Assembly (NCBI RefSeq): GCF_003781945.1
Contig: NZ_RJJW01000006.1
Location: 124,001-188,000 of the forward strand
DNA from: Halorubrum sp. CSM-61
GTDB taxonomy: Archaea > Halobacteriota > Halobacteria > Halobacteriales > Haloferacaceae
Direction: 5' to 3'
DNA: 64,000 bases
The position numbers and the translations under genes are program-made. The notes beneath the pieces are model-generated. The model did no database searches. It saw nothing but the letters and a program-made list of their open reading frames with translations, and was not told where the DNA came from. Numbering within the stretch: position 1 is the first letter of the stretch; every line of letters begins with the position of its first letter. This document shows positions 6,799 through 14,322 of this stretch, piece after piece.

Positions 6799-9507
6799 CT
6801 ACTGCGTGGCCGCCGTCTGGGAGTCCCGCCGCCCGCGCCTGTTCGACTCGTCTTCCTCGTGATCGTCGCCGTCCGCCCGCCGGCGGTTGCGGACGAGACC
6901 GATCACGAGCAGCGCGGCGCCGACGCCCCGAGCGACGAGCTCGTTCGTGATCGAGTTCAGCGCGACGTCGACGCCGACGAGCCCGAACGCGGCGCTCGCC
7001 GGCAACAGCACCATGGCGGGGACCGACAGCAACACCGCGGCGGCGATGAGCGCGACGCGCGACCCGGACCGCACGTCGGTGTGGTAGTAGCCGATGATCG
7101 CGACGCCGAGCGCGTACACGCCGGCGAACACCGCGACGACCGGGGCGACGACCTCGGGCAGGAAGAACCCGAGGTCGGAGACGTCGGCGCCGGTCAGAAT
7201 CGATCCCTGTCCGTCGGTCGTGCGGAGCAGCAGGATTCCGGGCGAGAACACGAACGCGAACGGAACGAGGATCTTGTTCAGCGAGAGCAGGAACGCCTGC
7301 TTGCCGGTATCGAAGGGGTCGGACTTCGCGATCCCGGCCGCGGCGTACGCGGCGACCATCACGGGCGGCGTCACGTCCGCCATCAGCCCGAGGTAGAGGA
7401 CGAACAGGTGGACCGCTAAGATCGCGATCCCGAAATCGGGGAGGACGGGGCCGAGCAGTACGACGATGATGATGTACATCACCGTCGTCGGCATTCCCAT
7501 CCCGACGATCACGGCCGCGAGGCCGGCGAGGATCAACAGCAGGACGAGCGACCCGCCGCTCACGCTAATGATGAGCGCCCGGAGGCTGCCGCCGAGCCCG
7601 GTGATCCCGATGACGCCGGGGATGATCCCGGCGGCGGCGACCGCGACGACCACGATGGTCGCGGTCTTCGCGCCGGAGTCCATCGCCTTCAGCACGAACG
7701 ACCCAAACTGGCCGGCCCGCGACGACGCGACCTCGGAGCCGGTCCGCTCGTCGAACCACGTCGCCGCGTCGATCACGTCGTCGTCGAGGTCGAGCAGGGG
7801 CGCGTCCCCACGCGGGTCGGCGAGGAGGAAGGCGACGCTGATCGCCGTGATGATCGTCGGCAGCGAGGATGCGGCCTCTCTGAGCGCGCCAGCCGCGCCG
7901 TACTCCGCGGCCTCGGCGCCGTACGCCAACTCGATCGGCGTCACGCCGAGGGATGCCAACGAGACGGCGAACAGCGCGTAGCCGGCCGCGATCGCCCCGA
8001 CGAGGTACTGTCCCGTCCGCTCGTTGTAGGCGGCGACCATGGCGATGAGCGCTACGGTCGCGATGATCGTGAGCCACCCGGCGCGGCCCACGGAGAGCCG
8101 GGCGATCACGAGGTAGTACAGGAGGAGCCCGAGCGGGACCAGATAGAACCAGCCGCGACGCATGTGCGGGCCCATGTCGAGCAGCTCGGACCGATTCAGC
8201 CCGCCGATCCCGTGTTTGGCTGCCTCGAAGTGGACCATCACCCACATCCCGAAGAAGAAGGCGATGGCCGGCAGCGTCGCGGCGATCACCACGTCGCGGA
8301 ACGGCGTCCCCGTGTACTCGACGATGAGGAACGCGGCCGCGCCCATCACCGGCGGGAGGATCTGGCCGCCGGAGGAGACCGACGACTCCACCGCGCCGGA
8401 GAACTCCGGCGAGTAGCCGGAGCGTTTCATCAGCGGGATCGTCAGCGCGCCGGTGGTCACCGTGTTCGCGACCGAGGAGCCGGAGAGCATCCCCATGAAC
8501 CCGGAGGCGACGACGCTCGCCTTCGCCGGGCCGCCCTTCCGCGTGCCCGTGATCGAGTACGCCAGATCGATGAACCACTTGCCGGCGCCGGACATCTCCA
8601 GGAACGCCCCGAAGAGGATGAAGATGTAGATGAATCGCACGGAGACGCCGACCGGCACGCCTAAGATTCCCTCGACCGTGTACCAGAGGTTCTGGACGAT
8701 CTGGTTCCAGCGCAGCTCCGAGGTGGCGAACGTCTGCGCGATCGGCAGGTCGCGCGGCAGGAGGTACCCGTACTTTGCGTACAGGAGGAAGAGGCTCACG
8801 AGTATCGTGAGCAGCAGCCCCAGCGCGCGCCGCGTCGCCTCCAACACGAGGAGGATCGCGAGCACTCCCATCAGGTACGCGAGGCTGTAGTCGGTGAGGA
8901 ACCCGACCTCCGCGAACGAGAGCCACGGGACGACCTCGCCGAGCGTGCCCGCGCCGCCGAGTCCCCGCACGCGGATGATGTCCGTGATCTCGTCGTACCG
9001 GGTGAGATAATAGAGGGTCGGGAACGTCGACAGCAGGACCAGCCCGAGGTCCGACGGCGTGATCCGGGTCGACTCCTCGTCGACGAACAGCCACCAGACG
9101 CCCCGTCGAACTCCCTCGGTCGCTCGCGTCACCGGCGAGTCGCCGAGCCTGTCTCGCGCGAGCGAGGGGAGCGCGGCGATCCGGCTCGTGATCGCCCCGC
9201 TACCGCCCGATCCCGGGAACAGGAGGAACGCCATCACGAGCGCGAAGTTGACGTGGATCGCGCGCACCTGCAGCGAGGAGAGCGCGCCGAGCCGCACCGT
9301 GGTGAGGCCCGGGATCGTGAACTCGAAGACGAACCCCCGAGCGCCGAGCCACAGCTGGTACGCCGAGAAGGCGATCCCGACGAGCGCGACGGCGACCAGC
9401 GAGGCCCCCCTCAGCGAGCGTCGGTTGTCGATCTCCTCGAATACCTGATCGGCCGCTTCGGTCCCTTCCGCGTCCGGTTCGATCCCGTCTGATGTGTTCG
9501 TCGTCAC
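6799..9507 (-). CDS. TRAP transporter fused permease (4TM-12TM), TAXI type
   Basis: 902 aa from a GTG start at 9507. Many hydrophobic helices span the whole length. The N-terminal helices correspond to the small DctQ-like part. The large part holds the DctM signature regions GFMGMLSGSSVANTVTTGA and SSGGQILPPVMGAAAF, and later VGMGMPTTVMYIIIV and VTPPVMVAAYAAAGIA. It is the membrane subunit of a sodium- or proton-driven importer served by a TAXI binding protein. It follows the DUF1850 and binding-protein genes on the same strand with a gap of 69 bp, so the three form one operon. Substrates of this type are organic acids or amino acids; the ligand here is not determinable. Confidence 0.9.
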   Translation of the reverse strand: MTTNTSDGIEPDAEGTEAADQVFEEIDNRRSLRGASLVAVALVGIAFSAYQLWLGARGFVFEFTIPGLTTVRLGALSSLQVRAIHVNFALVMAFLLFPGSGGSGAITSRIAALPSLARDRLGDSPVTRATEGVRRGVWWLFVDEESTRITPSDLGLVLLSTFPTLYYLTRYDEITDIIRVRGLGGAGTLGEVVPWLSFAEVGFLTDYSLAYLMGVLAILLVLEATRRALGLLLTILVSLFLLYAKYGYLLPRDLPIAQTFATSELRWNQIVQNLWYTVEGILGVPVGVSVRFIYIFILFGAFLEMSGAGKWFIDLAYSITGTRKGGPAKASVVASGFMGMLSGSSVANTVTTGALTIPLMKRSGYSPEFSGAVESSVSSGGQILPPVMGAAAFLIVEYTGTPFRDVVIAATLPAIAFFFGMWVMVHFEAAKHGIGGLNRSELLDMGPHMRRGWFYLVPLGLLLYYLVIARLSVGRAGWLTIIATVALIAMVAAYNERTGQYLVGAIAAGYALFAVSLASLGVTPIELAYGAEAAEYGAAGALREAASSLPTIITAISVAFLLADPRGDAPLLDLDDDVIDAATWFDERTGSEVASSRAGQFGSFVLKAMDSGAKTATIVVVAVAAAGIIPGVIGITGLGGSLRALIISVSGGSLVLLLILAGLAAVIVGMGMPTTVMYIIIVVLLGPVLPDFGIAILAVHLFVLYLGLMADVTPPVMVAAYAAAGIAKSDPFDTGKQAFLLSLNKILVPFAFVFSPGILLLRTTDGQGSILTGADVSDLGFFLPEVVAPVVAVFAGVYALGVAIIGYYHTDVRSGSRVALIAAAVLLSVPAMVLLPASAAFGLVGVDVALNSITNELVARGVGAALLVIGLVRNRRRADGDDHEEDESNRRGRRDSQTAATQ

Positions 9508-9576
9508 AGTTGTGTCACCCTCTCGTGTCCCTGTCTCGTTCCCGTCTTCCCGTGTCGGCGGACGCGACGGCGACCG

Positions 9577-10098
9577 CTACAGCCGCGGCGCCACCCGCCG
9601 CTCGACCGTCAGCTCGACGGCCCCGCCGTCGGTCATCCCCGCGATGTCGTACCGCTCGTCGCCGACGATCAGGTCGTGGTCGGCGACGTGACCCGTCTTC
9701 AGGTGTAGCGTCTCGTGCGACTCGGACGGCGGTTCGAAGACGTACCGTCCGTCGCGCTCCGTCACGTCCGCCTGCGACGGGAGCCCGGCCCCGAAGGAGC
9801 TGAACTCCATCCGAGTCATCACCAGCTCCCCGTCCCTCGGGACGTACACGTCTCGGACGGTCGTCTTCTCGACGCTGTGCGTGTACTCGATGGCGATCTC
9901 CGTGTCGTCGGAGACCGGAGCCGTCACCAGCTCGGTACCGCTCTCGTCGGTCACGACCAGCGTCGGGCCGCCGGCGACGGCGTCGACCGCGCCGGTGGCG
10001 AACGCCGCCCCCGTCGCGGCTACGAGGATCGCCACGACGGCGACCGCGACGAGGGCGGTTCCGCGTCGGCCCGACGGGAGTCGCGACCGGAACGCCAC
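9577..10098 (-). CDS. DUF1850 protein of the TAXI-TRAP operon
   Basis: 173 aa. The frame is open upstream to 10233, but that part overlaps the binding-protein gene and has non-coding composition (Arg/Ser/Thr-rich). The GTG at 10098, one base past the upstream stop, is therefore the likely start. There is one N-terminal transmembrane segment (ALVAVAVVAILVAATGAAFA), then an extracytoplasmic beta-rich domain with the DUF1850 hallmarks EIAIEYTHSVEKTTVRDVY and MEFSSFGAGLPSQAD. DUF1850 proteins commonly accompany TAXI TRAP genes; their function is unknown. Tight spacing suggests translational coupling with the binding protein. Confidence 0.85.
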   Translation of the reverse strand: MAFRSRLPSGRRGTALVAVAVVAILVAATGAAFATGAVDAVAGGPTLVVTDESGTELVTAPVSDDTEIAIEYTHSVEKTTVRDVYVPRDGELVMTRMEFSSFGAGLPSQADVTERDGRYVFEPPSESHETLHLKTGHVADHDLIVGDERYDIAGMTDGGAVELTVERRVAPRL

Positions 10099-10099
10099 G

Positions 10100-11176
10100 C
10101 TACTCGAAGTAGCGGGCCGCGCCCTCGTGCAGTTCGATCGACATCCCGTCCTGCGCGGAGTCGACGGTGATGAAGTCCGTCTTGATCGACAGCTGATCGA
10201 GGTTCTCGAAGATGGCCTCGGTGACCGCCTCAACCGCGTCGGCGGAGTACTCGGACCGGGTCGCGATCATCGCCTGCACGGAGACGGTGTCGACGTCCTC
10301 GTCGATGCCCTCGTAGGTGCCGCCGGGGATCGTGTCGTCCGCGAACCACGACGCGTCGTCGCGGGCCGCCTGCCGCTCCTCGTCGGACATGTTGAGGATC
10401 TGCACGTCCGTGGTCGTCGCGAGTTCCTCAATCGCGCCCACGGGCCACCCGCCGACGACGAACGCCGCGTCGACGTCGCCGTCGCGGAGCTGGTTGGCCG
10501 CCTGCGTGAAGTCGGTGTTCTGCTCCTCGAAGTCGTCGGTCGTGAGACCGGCCGCCGACTCGAGGATCTGAAGCGCGTTCACCTGCGTCCCGCTGCCGAG
10601 GTCGCCGGTGTTGACGCGCATGCCCTCGAGGTCGGACAGCGAGCTCACGTCGGCCTCGGGGTTGAGGAGGACGTGGATCGTCTCCGGGTACAGCGTCGCG
10701 ACGCCGCGGAGGTTCTCGACCGGGGAGCCGTCGAACGCGTCGAGGCCCTCGCCGTTGCGGGCGAAGTAGGCGACGTCGTTCTGGATCAGCGCGAAGTCGG
10801 CGTCGCCGTTGCCGAGGCTGCCGACGTTCTCGACCGACGCGCCCGTCGAGGAGACCTCGACCGGGTAGTCGGTGTTGTCCTCGATGATTCCCTCGAACTC
10901 GCCGGACAGCGGGAAGTAGGTCCCTCCCGTGCCGCCGGCGTGCCAGCGGATGACGTCTTGGCTGCCTCCGTCGTCGCCGTCGGAACCGTCGGAGCCATCG
11001 GAACCGTCGCTGCCGTCGCTGCCGTCGCTTCCGTCGCTTCCGTCACTGCCGTCTTCACCGTCGGAGCCGTCGCCGCCGTTATCCGAACAGCCGGCGATGC
11101 CGACGACGCCGGCCGCGGCCGCCCCGCGGAGGAGCGTCCGACGGTCGATACGTTCGCTGATTGGGTTGTCTGACAT
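10100..11176 (-). CDS. TAXI-family TRAP solute-binding lipoprotein
   Basis: 358 aa from ATG 11176; upstream in-frame codons would precede the signal peptide and are rejected. A Tat motif R12-R13 (IDRRTLLRG) and lipobox Cys30 (GIAGC) predict Tat export and lipid anchoring. An Asp/Ser/Gly linker of tandem DGS units (about residues 32-62) follows as a tether. The binding domain begins IRWHAGGTGGTYFPLSGEF, the TAXI (TRAP-associated extracytoplasmic immunogenic) N-terminal signature, and contains GSLGNGDADFALIQNDVAYFA. It captures the substrate for the fused permease downstream. The linker repeats are encoded by a short tandem DNA array that could vary in length. Confidence 0.9.
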   Translation of the reverse strand: MSDNPISERIDRRTLLRGAAAAGVVGIAGCSDNGGDGSDGEDGSDGSDGSDGSDGSDGSDGSDGSDGDDGGSQDVIRWHAGGTGGTYFPLSGEFEGIIEDNTDYPVEVSSTGASVENVGSLGNGDADFALIQNDVAYFARNGEGLDAFDGSPVENLRGVATLYPETIHVLLNPEADVSSLSDLEGMRVNTGDLGSGTQVNALQILESAAGLTTDDFEEQNTDFTQAANQLRDGDVDAAFVVGGWPVGAIEELATTTDVQILNMSDEERQAARDDASWFADDTIPGGTYEGIDEDVDTVSVQAMIATRSEYSADAVEAVTEAIFENLDQLSIKTDFITVDSAQDGMSIELHEGAARYFE

Positions 11177-11339
11177 ACGACATGTAGTACACAACGGGAG
11201 TTGATAACGGTTTCCCATGAGAATGTCCGCTTCGATCAGAGTATCTCGGTTACATCCGTCGGTTTCTCGATCAGACGACACGATCCGATCGCCGCCGAAT
11301 GAAAAGGCCTTTTACGTCGACGGGGGTACGATTGAGTGA

Positions 11340-11413
11340 GGGCCGGTAGCTCAGTTAGGGAGAGCGACGGACTCTTAATCCGTCGGTCGCGTGTTCAAAT
11401 CGCGCCCGGCCCG
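11340..11413 (+). tRNA. tRNA-Lys (anticodon CTT)
   Basis: 74-nt cloverleaf. Acceptor arm GGGCCGG (11340-11346) pairs with CCGGCCC (11406-11412), with discriminator G at 11413. D arm is GCTC/GAGC. Anticodon stem ACGGA/TCCGT encloses loop CTCTTAA, giving anticodon CTT at 11374-11376. T arm has GTTCAAAT. CCA is not encoded and there is no intron. It reads AAG lysine codons. The gene is also the probable source of the 3'-end copy found 124 bp downstream. Confidence 0.95.
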
Positions 11414-11501
11414 CTTTCTCGCCGCGAGCAATCTCGCGAGCGGCGAGTATCGGACCCTGCGAGATTTGAACGCAGGGAGGTCGCGCGCAGCGGAAGCGAG
11501 C

Positions 11502-11537
11502 ACGTCCGACCGTGTGTTACAAATCGCGCCCGGCCCG
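11502..11537 (+). repeat. Copy of the tRNA-Lys 3' end (possible att scar)
   Basis: The 18 bases at 11520-11537 are identical to the last 18 bases of tRNA-Lys (11396-11413). Similarity extends leftward over a further ~18 bases with mismatches and one inserted A in the T loop. The copy is in the same orientation and cannot fold as a full tRNA. Direct duplication of a tRNA 3' end is the usual footprint of a tyrosine-recombinase integration, here with only ~90 bp left between the copies. The T-rich run after 11537 could act as a terminator. Confidence 0.7.
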
Positions 11538-11594
11538 TTTTTACTGAACCGCTGAACGTCCGCGACGCGAGCGTCCGCCCCGATCGGCTCGCCG

Positions 11595-13271
11595 TCACGA
11601 TTTCCGAAACCGGACAGCGAGCGCTGTCACGAGGAGCGCGAGCACGGCGGCGATCGCGCCGAACCCGGGAACGCTCTCGTCGGTTTCGGCGTCCGCCGGC
11701 GGCGCGTCGTCGTCGGTCTCGAACACGGTGATCGTGCCGACCTCCTCATCCTCGAGTGACACCGGCCCGCTCTCGCTCGGTTCGAACCCGATCTCGACGG
11801 TCGTGTTCTCGCCCGGTTCGAGCGTCACCTCCCGTTCGGCGACGGACTCGTTGTTCATGCTGACGGTGAGATTTCGAGTCGCCGGGAGGTCTCCGGGATT
11901 CCTCACCGCGGCCCGGACCGTCGTTTCGTACCCCGCTCGAACCCGGTCCGCGGGGACCGCTCCGTCGACGACGTCGACGCGTCCGGGTTCGAGCGCGACG
12001 ACGGCGACGGGCGAGGCCGCAGGCAGCGTCGCGGCGTGAGCGTCCCCGTCCACCTCGTGCGTGACGTCGGCCGTCGTCCATTCGCCGTCGACGTACCGTA
12101 ACACCTCGACGTCTTCCGGACCCAACCCGTCCGGGATCGCCTCCTCGTCGACGTCGAACCGGAGCGTCGTCCCGCTCGTGTTCGCGGCGTCGAGCGACGA
12201 GGTGAACTCCACGTATCCGAGCGCCGTCCCGTGGGGGACGGGATCGCGACCTTCCGGCTCGGCCGTCGGCCGTCCGACCGTCGTCTCGAACGACTCCCGG
12301 TCACCGGCCGGATCCACGCCGACCGAGGAAACCGACAGGGCGGGCTGTCCCTCCGACGGGCCGGCGAGATCCACGGCGAGATCGTACTGCCCGTCGGTCG
12401 CGCCGTCGACGTCGAGGGTGACGGCCTCGTCCGATTCGGACCGGACCACGGTCGGCCCCTCGTCCCCGGTCGTGCTGGATCCCGAAGAGCTCGAAGAGCT
12501 CGACGGGTCAGACGATCCGGACGAGCCAGACGAGTCTGATGAATCAGTCGACTCAGAGGGTTCGGTGGAGTCGGTCTCTATCCCGTCCGTTTCGTTCGTC
12601 CCGGTCGGATCGGTCTCATTCCGGTCGGCGGGATCGGTCTGCTCGTCTGTTTCGTTGAAACCGGTCTCGTTCTGCTCGGCGGTCTCGTTCTGCTCGGCAG
12701 GCTCATCAGACTCGTCCGTTTCGTTCGTCTCGGTAGGTCCGTCTGTCTCGTCCGTTTCGTTCGTCGCGGTAGGCTCATCTGTCCCGTCCGTCCCGTTTTG
12801 ATCGGCGGTGTCGTTCTGGTCGGCAGGCTCATCAGACTCGTCCGTTTCGTTCGTCTCGGTAGGTCCGTCTGTCCCGTCCGCTCCGTCCGTCTCGTTCTGC
12901 TCGGCGGTGTCATTCTGCTCGGCAGATTCATCAGACTCGCTCGTTCCGTCCGTCTCGTTCCGCTCGAGGGGATCGTCAGAATCGGTCCCGGTATCGTTGG
13001 TGCCCGAGCCGATCTCCGAGTCGTTGGTGGACGATCCCGTCTCCGTGTCGTTGGTGGACGCTCCCGTCTCCGTGTCGTTGGTGGACGCTCCCGTTTCCGT
13101 ATCGTTAGTGGATGCTCCAGTCTCCGTCTCATTGGTGTCGGGAGCGTCCACCTGCAGCTCGACGGCGTCGCCGGCTGCCGAAACGCCGATGCCAGTGCTT
13201 CCCGAGAGAACCAGCACTGCGAAGATTACCACAGCACAGATCCAGATAACGGCACTCTTGCGACCGGACAT
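11595..13271 (-). CDS. PGF-CTERM surface protein with Thr/Asn/Glu repeat stalk
   Basis: 558 aa. An N-terminal Sec-type signal (WICAVVIFAVLVLSGSTGIGVSA) is followed from about residue 45 by tandem repeats: first ten-residue units ending TNDTETGAS, then blocks built from TNETD, EQNDTA and DESDEPA, then a serine run near residue 265. The globular part (~275-420) resembles the PGF-pre-PGF region (ALGYVEFTSS, VEVLRYVDGEWT), followed by a CARDB-like adhesion/Ig domain (TRNLTVSMNNESVAEREVTLEPGENTTVEIGF). It ends VPGFGAIAAVLALLVTALAV plus basic residues: a PGF-CTERM signal, processed and lipid-anchored by archaeosortase A. N-x-T sites are abundant, so it is probably a heavily glycosylated cell-surface protein. 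Confidence 0.88.
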   Translation of the reverse strand: MSGRKSAVIWICAVVIFAVLVLSGSTGIGVSAAGDAVELQVDAPDTNETETGASTNDTETGASTNDTETGASTNDTETGSSTNDSEIGSGTNDTGTDSDDPLERNETDGTSESDESAEQNDTAEQNETDGADGTDGPTETNETDESDEPADQNDTADQNGTDGTDEPTATNETDETDGPTETNETDESDEPAEQNETAEQNETGFNETDEQTDPADRNETDPTGTNETDGIETDSTEPSESTDSSDSSGSSGSSDPSSSSSSSGSSTTGDEGPTVVRSESDEAVTLDVDGATDGQYDLAVDLAGPSEGQPALSVSSVGVDPAGDRESFETTVGRPTAEPEGRDPVPHGTALGYVEFTSSLDAANTSGTTLRFDVDEEAIPDGLGPEDVEVLRYVDGEWTTADVTHEVDGDAHAATLPAASPVAVVALEPGRVDVVDGAVPADRVRAGYETTVRAAVRNPGDLPATRNLTVSMNNESVAEREVTLEPGENTTVEIGFEPSESGPVSLEDEEVGTITVFETDDDAPPADAETDESVPGFGAIAAVLALLVTALAVRFRKS

Positions 13272-13740: not shown

Positions 13741-14076
13741 GCGGTGACGACCTCCAAAGCCCCAGCCGCGAGGACTCGCGCGGCTCGCTGTCGTTCGAGA
13801 CGCCGAAGGCGTCTCGTGATGACGAAACGGCGAAGCCGTTTCGAACCACGCGCTTCAGTCGCTCACTTCGTTCGCTCCTTGCAGTGCTTGCGTCGCCGTG
13901 CTTCGTCCTCGCGACTGCCCCTTTGAGTCCCACCCGACCGCACCGCCCCTCACCTCACGCCTCCCCAGCCTCGTCGCTGGCGGCGATAGCCGCCAGCGAC
14001 TCCCTCGCGCGTGCACCTCACGCCCTTCGGGCGCTCGGCGGCACGCGCCACCGCATTGTCCTTTATAAATGCTCGT
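13741..14076. repeat. Multi-hairpin repetitive element
   Basis: A run of five inverted repeats in about 300 bp: 13764-13785 (7-bp arms), 13796-13816 (CGAGACGCC/GGCGTCTCG), 13823-13843 (CGAAACGGC/GCCGTTTCG), 13973-14000 (12-bp arms around GATA) and 14007-14048 (8-bp arms GCGCGTGC/GCACGCGC with an inner GCCC-TTC-GGGC hairpin). Open frames through it translate to low-complexity Arg/Ala text and are not credible genes. Similar GC-rich, hairpin-chained blocks recur in Halorubrum genomes in my recollection, which I cannot check here. It may be a non-autonomous repeat or a structured RNA. Confidence 0.6.
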
Positions 14077-14322
14077 CGCCGTCACTCACGGCTTTTTTAA
14101 ATACTGTCTCGCGGACACCGATCTGCAATACCCACTCCCGCTATCGATCACCACAGCTCCCGTACTGACCGAGCGAGACCAAACTATCAACTGCTGAGCT
14201 TTTCAATAGGCCCGCGAAACCGGTTGTAGGCGTCGGGTGCGCTCTTGGGGGCGTGTGCCGTCGAGCGAGTCCCATGTTATCCGACCCGATCTATTATCTC
14301 CGTCGTCGACGAGGACTCACGC

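Follow-up and report, generated by a model that had tools for sequence, protein, structure and literature searches.

A widespread and apparently undescribed family of repeat units behind tRNA genes of salt-loving archaea

The tyrT repeats of Escherichia coli are a classical oddity. At tyrV of E. coli MG1655, three copies of the tRNA 3' end follow the gene at spacings of 178, 356 and 534; rttR is annotated in the first repeat, and an antisense segment of about 10 nt (GGGGAAGGAT) is complementary to ATCCTTCCCC of the copy. Integron cassette arrays also consist of tandem, gene-poor modules at one anchor, each ending in an imperfect palindrome, and the core of the attC site reads GTTRRRY. Integrative elements with attachment sites in the T-loop or 3' end of a tRNA gene produce a direct repeat of the tRNA 3' end; they are kilobases long and carry an integrase-like ORF. 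Among haloarchaeal repeats, the PATEs and small mobile repeats (SMRs) of Haloquadratum are described without target duplication, and the MITEs with ITRs of known transposons, as PMC3119063 reports. The casposase of Aciduliprofundum recognises TCAAATC upstream of its insertion site at the 3' end of tRNA-Pro, and the duplicated segment of 14-15 bp lies downstream of this motif (PMC6614799).

We compared these systems with a locus of Halorubrum sp. CSM-61 that lies in a window of 64,000 nucleotides, the whole stretch of DNA that was analysed. Of 34 named loci compared with the Leu-TAA region of this genome, those of Halorubrum were the most similar, reaching 88.8% over 3.2 kb. The tRNA-Lys(CTT) gene at 11340..11413 on the + strand (Rfam RF00005, 66.7 bits; the ARAGORN call ends at 11414) is the anchor of one non-coding repeat unit of 124 bp (11414..11537, + strand), which consists of a first hairpin (HP1), a linker, an antisense arm, a core and a copied tRNA 3' end. 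An earlier note on this DNA had reported 18 identical bases at 11396-11413 and 11520-11537 with a spacing of 124 bp, which we confirmed; without gaps, the direct repeat reaches 22 nt with one mismatch (11396-11417 and 11520-11541). The weaker similarity that the note had seen to the left of these bases is real (copy GTGTTACAAATC vs tRNA GTGTTCAAATC), and, allowing for one inserted base, the repeat begins at about position 53 of the tRNA. The duplicated segment of the tRNA (11393..11413, + strand) thus comprises positions 53-73, i.e., the T-loop, the 3' strand of the T-stem, the 3' strand of the acceptor stem and the discriminator, with a boundary drawn from the 150 non-redundant units described below. 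Two features had been missed: an inverted pair at 11393-11413 and 11451-11471, 81% complementary, which is the antisense arm, and the fold predicted for 11415-11545 (-62.3 kcal/mol, z -3.9, reached by 0 of 200 shuffles).

HP1 (11418..11447, + strand) is a predicted stem-loop directly after the tRNA, and a similar sequence, L1, occurs in other families. HP2 (11451..11537, + strand) is a long imperfect palindrome, defined by its predicted fold and by the covariance model R1, which matches 11445-11537 with 91.8 bits, the window unit itself being among the 14 used to build R1. The palindrome begins with the antisense arm A' (11451..11471, + strand), the reverse complement of the tRNA 3' end identified by the inverted repeat and a per-position test; its best conserved part is GATTTGAAC at 11463-11471. 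The core (11472..11515, + strand) is common to units behind other tRNAs and in other families, as seen from a 29-nt core pattern and from an identity of 75/76 between 11463-11538 and a Halovenus locus (L174). Sequence comparison placed the copied tRNA 3' end (GTTACAAATCGCGCCCGGCCCG, with one extra A in the T-loop) at 11516..11537 on the + strand. A folded imperfect palindrome was predicted at the end of each module.

The surroundings of the unit contain further features. A pair of GNA hairpins (stems of 9 bp, 27 bp apart) lies at 13804-13840 and adjoins 13850-14094, which matches places in three other Halorubrum loci (L163, L165 and L171; 77-86%); the two together are probably another haloarchaeal intergenic repeat. 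An ORF of 558 aa on the - strand (11595-13271) has long repeats rich in Asn, Glu, Thr and Asp and a C-terminal VPGFGA-hydrophobic tail, and by eye looks like an archaeosortase-anchored surface protein. By eye, the region 6799-11281 (- strand), divergent from the tRNA, encodes a 902-aa permease of TRAP-like type along with a binding protein that resembles a lipoprotein and has a (GSD)n linker.

Units of this kind were then compared across loci. We assembled 189 distinct units (150 non-redundant after removal of near-duplicates) from 29 tRNA species; the loci were mostly fetched by Lys-based queries, and Lys is therefore over-represented among the 189. In the 150 non-redundant units, the identity of the copy to the local tRNA was 0.83 at position 53, 0.65 at position 52 and 0.32 at position 51. 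One-base insertions cause register shifts at positions 54-57, with an identity of 0.74-0.85; positions 61-73 belonged to the selection of units and their identity carries no evidence. Base 57 (A or G) of the copy was that of the local tRNA in 125 of 150 units. The antisense arm was closer to the local tRNA than to the mean of other tRNAs in 94 of 105 units (13.8 vs 11.7 of 21); by the per-position test, the excess sits in the T-loop and T-stem, and the acceptor part is mixed, at about chance level. This test was used in place of a strict 16-nt antisense test (3/43 vs 10/1674), which was too strict for imperfect arms. Some antisense arms are complete, e.g., that of Gly-CCC, which includes its trailer. 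Loop polarity is reversed in a second, shorter type of unit (most below 100 bp, by eye), and no consistent terminal inverted repeats were seen in the insert by eye.

The one-base insertion in the T-loop recurs in the copied ends of ten further loci (L011, L012, L014, L015, L027, L031, L131, L174, L179 and L188) besides the window; it takes the forms GTTACAAATC, GTTCACAATC, GTTCAAAATC and GTTCATAATC, and is absent from the tRNA tails printed beside them. Such an insertion may disable the copy as a recombination site. In a tRNA-Ile unit (L193), the core is apparently inverted relative to the arms (by eye), which suggests recombination between inverted arms. At L130 and L131, extra hairpins enlarge the tip of the HP2 core (by eye), indicating that the tip of the palindrome tolerates insertions.

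To describe the distribution, we counted tRNA contexts in which a copy of the tRNA's own tail lay downstream (15 nt, at most two mismatches, at most 450 bp downstream). In the window's genome, this held for 20 of 43 distinct contexts, two of which are neighbouring tRNA-Asp genes with one common array; the controls gave 13/1674 for the tails of other tRNAs, 1/43 for the upstream side and 0/43 for the reversed tail. Counts in three further genomes were made on the best-scoring 30 tRNA loci of 41 (G137), 50 (G335) and 43 (G056). G137, from another family, gave 18/31 (control 4/826); G056, a haloarchaeon without model matches, gave 0/29 (control 1/752); and G335, a non-haloarchaeal genome outside the order, gave 0/32 (control 0/894). 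The model R1 was made from 14 HP2s and its structure was written by hand, as RNAalifold on alignment A1 gave only 6 pairs. At E<=0.001, R1 matched 268 of the 293 genomes from the order. In a sample of the phylum it matched 43 of 246 genomes, all 43 within the order; R1 is tuned to the haloarchaeal HP2, and absence elsewhere means absence of that sequence type.

A whole-genome scan of the window's genome with R1 gave 15 matches at E<=1. Of these, 14 fell on 11 tRNA loci, including two opposite-strand matches and one to the tRNA itself. The sole match away from a tRNA (L198, G000:C11:342898-343005, E 0.013) lies in a palindrome-rich stretch. For 20 hand-picked strong R1 matches, a tRNA was present in the fetched stretch in 19, and a tail copy with at most two mismatches in 17 of these; the twentieth (L178) has a copy of a tRNA-Lys end directly before HP1 and no tRNA nearby. 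A search of relatives showed the order tRNA, HP1, HP2 and copy in other species and at other tRNAs, sometimes twice in tandem. Among 25 Lys-CTT loci of the same genus, 8 had a copy within 1.5 kb, and these 8 differ in core type (by eye); in G037 and G027, an HP2 match lies 5 and 20 kb downstream of the Lys-CTT tRNA, respectively. A literature search, with thin coverage of subscription papers, turned up no account of these units from haloarchaea. The units constitute a widespread, apparently undescribed family behind the tRNA genes of salt-loving archaea.

The cores are shared between tRNAs and lineages. The core pattern (29 nt, one free base) occurred at 35 sites in 34 stretches of named genomes, from Halorubrum, Halobellus, Natrialba, Natronomonas, Haladaptatus, Halomarina, Haloarchaeobius, Halobaculum, Halovenus and other genera. 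Of these sites, 31 lay at most 201 nt behind a tRNA, with 8 tRNA species represented; the other four had no tRNA upstream within the locus, two of them being at the locus edge. Near-identical cores thus stand behind different tRNAs, and the copied tails match the local tRNA. The 75/76 identity between the HP2 of the window and that of Halovenus carboxidivorans (L174) comprises one gap and includes the extra A, while the best same-genus unit compared was 93.4% identical and HP2s of several other families were 94-97% identical (L090, L148, L101, L126 and L010). A coding stretch common to the window and Halovenus loci was 72.7% identical over 1405 bp.

Two pairs of loci also differ in whole units. 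L121 and L123 differ by one unit of about 111 bp between flanks that are 90-95% identical, and L209 and L210 differ by about 187 bp, with one unit vs three. No relative compared had both flanks of the window unit without other changes, which would have given a clean empty-site alignment; the comparison of L121 with L123 was used instead. In G026, four near-identical units of 111 bp stand in tandem, and further on an Arg-type unit lies within the Lys-TTT array; it is the only foreign tail found, apart from that of a neighbouring tRNA gene. G028 and G006 contain the same Arg/Lys chimaera, whose junctions fall in the shared AATCCC/GATCCC.

The layout can now be set against the described systems. 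Like the 178-bp repeats of E. coli tyrT/tyrV, the haloarchaeal units stand in tandem directly behind a tRNA, each ending in a copy of its 3' end and containing an antisense segment. The E. coli unit is longer, no HP1 of the haloarchaeal kind was noticed in it, and it was looked at in one locus, whereas many tRNA genes per haloarchaeal genome carry units; Rfam scans detected no sequence homology to the E. coli RtT family in the haloarchaeal units. As judged from sequence, the haloarchaeal units have the same layout as the E. coli tyrT/rttR repeats, which are the closest precedent, without a detected sequence relation. Integron arrays resemble the units in their tandem, palindrome-ended modules; however, the anchor here is a tRNA gene, and the arm GTTCAAA misfits the attC core. 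PATEs, MITEs and small mobile repeats of Haloquadratum are likewise short, haloarchaeal, transposase-free and palindrome- or repeat-bearing. In the available part of PMC3119063, however, they are not tied to tRNA 3' ends, whereas the units duplicate about 21 nt of tRNA; this duplication, seen in 150 non-redundant units, departs from IS605-type PATEs, which lack target duplication. Casposons (PMC6614799) share with the units a target recognised through TCAAATC near a tRNA 3' end and a target duplication, but are large elements with inverted repeats. Their duplication of 14-15 bp downstream of the T-loop motif also contrasts with that of the units, which covers positions 53-73 and includes the T-loop.

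The earlier note had read the repeat as an attachment site left by an integrated element, since lost, or as a cryptic site. Real integrative elements do occur at tRNA-Lys(CTT), at L134 and L139, with the attR TCAAATCGCGCCCGGCCCG or a one-base variant of it. In G037 (L134), the order is tRNA, a 5.2-kb element, attR and an intact unit, and a 340-aa ORF of the element is a putative tyrosine integrase by eye; in G035, an interval of 7.7 kb ends in a similar attR without a unit. These elements use nearly the same segment, and the attR in G037 and G035 has no HP1 or HP2 of its own. They are alike to the units in the TCAAATCGCGCCCGGCCCG segment at the same tRNA and in the direct repeat of the tRNA 3' end, but differ in their kilobase length, their integrase-like ORF and their position between tRNA and unit. 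The reading of the note is partly supported: the repeated segment overlaps the attachment segment of a real integrative element, and the feature is one of DNA recombination, has its anchor at the tRNA 3' end and varies among relatives (8 of 25 same-genus loci). The comparison with related strains that the note had proposed did reveal an element at this very tRNA, in G037, but the intact unit lies beyond its attR. The matching attP that was expected in viruses or plasmids did not appear: neither the core pattern nor the 21-nt attachment sequence had an exact match in the viral contigs scanned, and the plasmid search gave no match. A phage search returned 204 records; the 20 matches listed are confined to query bases 1-80 of 201, which cover the tRNA and its border. 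The note had also considered an ancient tRNA-derived feature, with a copy invariant in all relatives; presence varies, though distant families have the unit.

The direct repeat and the use of nearly the same segment by a real element in a relative speak for a scar. However, the same structured unit recurs at many tRNAs and in tandem, and most genomes sampled from the order have it; it coexists with a real element in G037, and viral contigs and plasmids lack a match, while the phage matches listed cover the tRNA part only. Its recurrence at many tRNAs and its coexistence with a real element led us to reject the lost-element reading, to which we leave hardly any probability: the roughly 100 bp between the repeats are not remains of an element but a conserved two-hairpin unit found in many haloarchaeal genomes. 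On the sequence evidence, the feature is a member of a tRNA-anchored repeat family rather than a lone attachment-site scar.

We asked whether the palindromes behave as DNA or as RNA. RNA helices are expected to favour G.T over A.C. Among 3107 aligned pairs of 121 non-redundant units, palindrome mismatches comprised 87 G.T vs 93 A.C, and the control, tRNA acceptor stems, gave 16 G.T vs 4 A.C; the near equality in the palindromes speaks for DNA rather than RNA structure. GNA mini-hairpins have an exceptional stability in single-stranded DNA. In 157 units, the strand of the tRNA had 215 of them vs 51.6+-7.9 in shuffled sequence, and the opposite strand 53 vs 20.4; when the stem had to span at least 5 bp, the count was 7 vs 0.95. 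Both the GNA and the wobble counts overstate independence, as the units are related to each other. Runs of at least five T within 60 nt followed 3 of 122 tRNAs with units, 12 of 122 last copies and 8 of 57 unit-free tRNAs, and this scarcity after unit-bearing tRNAs hints that tRNA and units may be co-transcribed. A terminator role was tried and rejected, as TTTT within 10 nt gave no clear contrast (9/57 without unit, 18/122 after the tRNA and 26/122 after the last copy). In Rfam scans of five loci, only the tRNA reached the gathering score; the window stretch had four matches at E<=1 with no RtT among them, and those to families other than tRNA were weak and sub-threshold.

These results bear on a possible functional RNA. 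In that case one transcript would carry both the tRNA and the units, and the RNA formed by the units would regulate or process the tRNA in the manner of an attenuator or of the E. coli rtT RNA; the antisense arm could pair either with the 3' end of the tRNA or with the copy downstream. Such an RNA would suit the tracking of the local T-arm by antisense arm and copy, the strong predicted fold, the T-run pattern (3/122, 12/122 and 8/57) and the conservation of HP2 across families, which exceeds that of the neighbouring gene; in addition, the E. coli tyrT repeats of the same layout contain the annotated small RNA rttR. We nevertheless consider it fairly unlikely, given that the palindromes lack the excess of G.T over A.C seen in tRNA stems (16 vs 4), that 17 of 25 same-genus Lys-CTT loci have no copy within 1.5 kb (at least two of these species, G037 and G027, having an HP2 match farther downstream), that no unit is present at 29 tRNAs of G056 and that no Rfam family except tRNA reaches its gathering score. 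Two narrower candidates were set aside: a guide RNA for T-loop modification, since the matches extend past the loop and vary by tRNA, and a tRNA-primed retro-element with the arm as primer-binding site, since the Gly-CCC antisense arm holds the trailer and not the complement of CCA (by eye). A purely recombinational or replicative origin was also weighed, in which slippage and template switching would duplicate the tRNA 3' end in sense and antisense without any mobile-element enzyme, and ectopic gene conversion through the conserved T-loop would distribute the cores. Two template switches give the order sense-antisense-sense, which is nearly perfect in Gly-CCC, and tandem identical copies, chimaeric junctions within 5-12 bp of shared sequence (by eye) and the resemblance of L193 to an inverted core (by eye) agree with it. 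The same core behind 8 tRNA species and the near-identity with Halovenus, however, ask for transfer of a defined sequence, and the common boundary at position 53 suggests a specific process; we therefore regard this origin as unlikely.

We favour, by a modest degree of confidence, a haloarchaeal non-coding tRNA-anchored family that behaves as small mobile DNA cassettes. The unit stands directly after a tRNA, contains HP1 and HP2 and ends in a copy of positions 53-73 of that tRNA; units are single or tandem, cores are common across tRNAs while the end copies are local, and two locus pairs differ by whole units. The cassettes would recombine within the segment from T-loop to 3' end that every tRNA gene offers, where TTCRAAT flanked by the T-stem inverted repeat could act as a recombinase-core-like site, and the copy would restore the 3' end and keep the tRNA whole. 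Once in place, units may expand and contract by recombination between direct repeats of about 21 bp, and either template-switch correction of the palindrome or selection for a hairpin in DNA may maintain the match between the antisense arm and the local T-arm. The most likely candidate for a mover would be integrases of T-loop-targeting elements acting in trans. Several observations weigh against mobile cassettes. If different tRNAs simply underwent site-specific exchange, the recipient tRNA would take on a foreign acceptor end and be spoiled; one chimaera only was found, inside an array. Distant families sometimes have a similar order of units (e.g., L121 and L179, by eye), as expected from vertical descent with loss no less than from mobility, and HP2 identities of 94-97% in several families could mean selection for some function rather than spread. 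Moreover, terminal inverted repeats are not consistently present in the insert (by eye), agreement of the antisense arm with the acceptor part is at about chance, neither free circles nor intermediates were observed, and no recombinase was found within the units or linked to them. Insertion of the unit, with target-site duplication, by a Cas1/casposase-like integrase directed to the T-loop of any tRNA gene would explain why any tRNA serves and why the copy is local, and the Aciduliprofundum motif TCAAATC has the same letters as the T-loop here (PMC6614799). That source places a duplication of 14-15 bp downstream of the motif vs about 21 nt including the T-loop here, and no terminal inverted repeats were seen in the units by eye; we judge such an enzyme very improbable. 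As a more speculative version, which we hold to be quite doubtful, the units could form arrays like integrons without genes: the T-loops of tRNAs would be the anchors, HP2 would be extruded as a single-stranded hairpin with GNA mini-loops to serve as the mobile site for a recombinase of the host or of an element, and units would jump between tRNAs and species with their arms rewritten.

These findings indicate that short duplications of tRNA ends in haloarchaea should not be counted as marks of lost viruses or islands. The tRNA 3' end is a common site where small units and true integrative elements meet. The layout of the E. coli tyrT type is here a genome-wide and order-wide phenomenon, and its many parallel cases of locally matched ends make the origin of such repeats testable, across the tRNAs of one genome or at an engineered tRNA locus.
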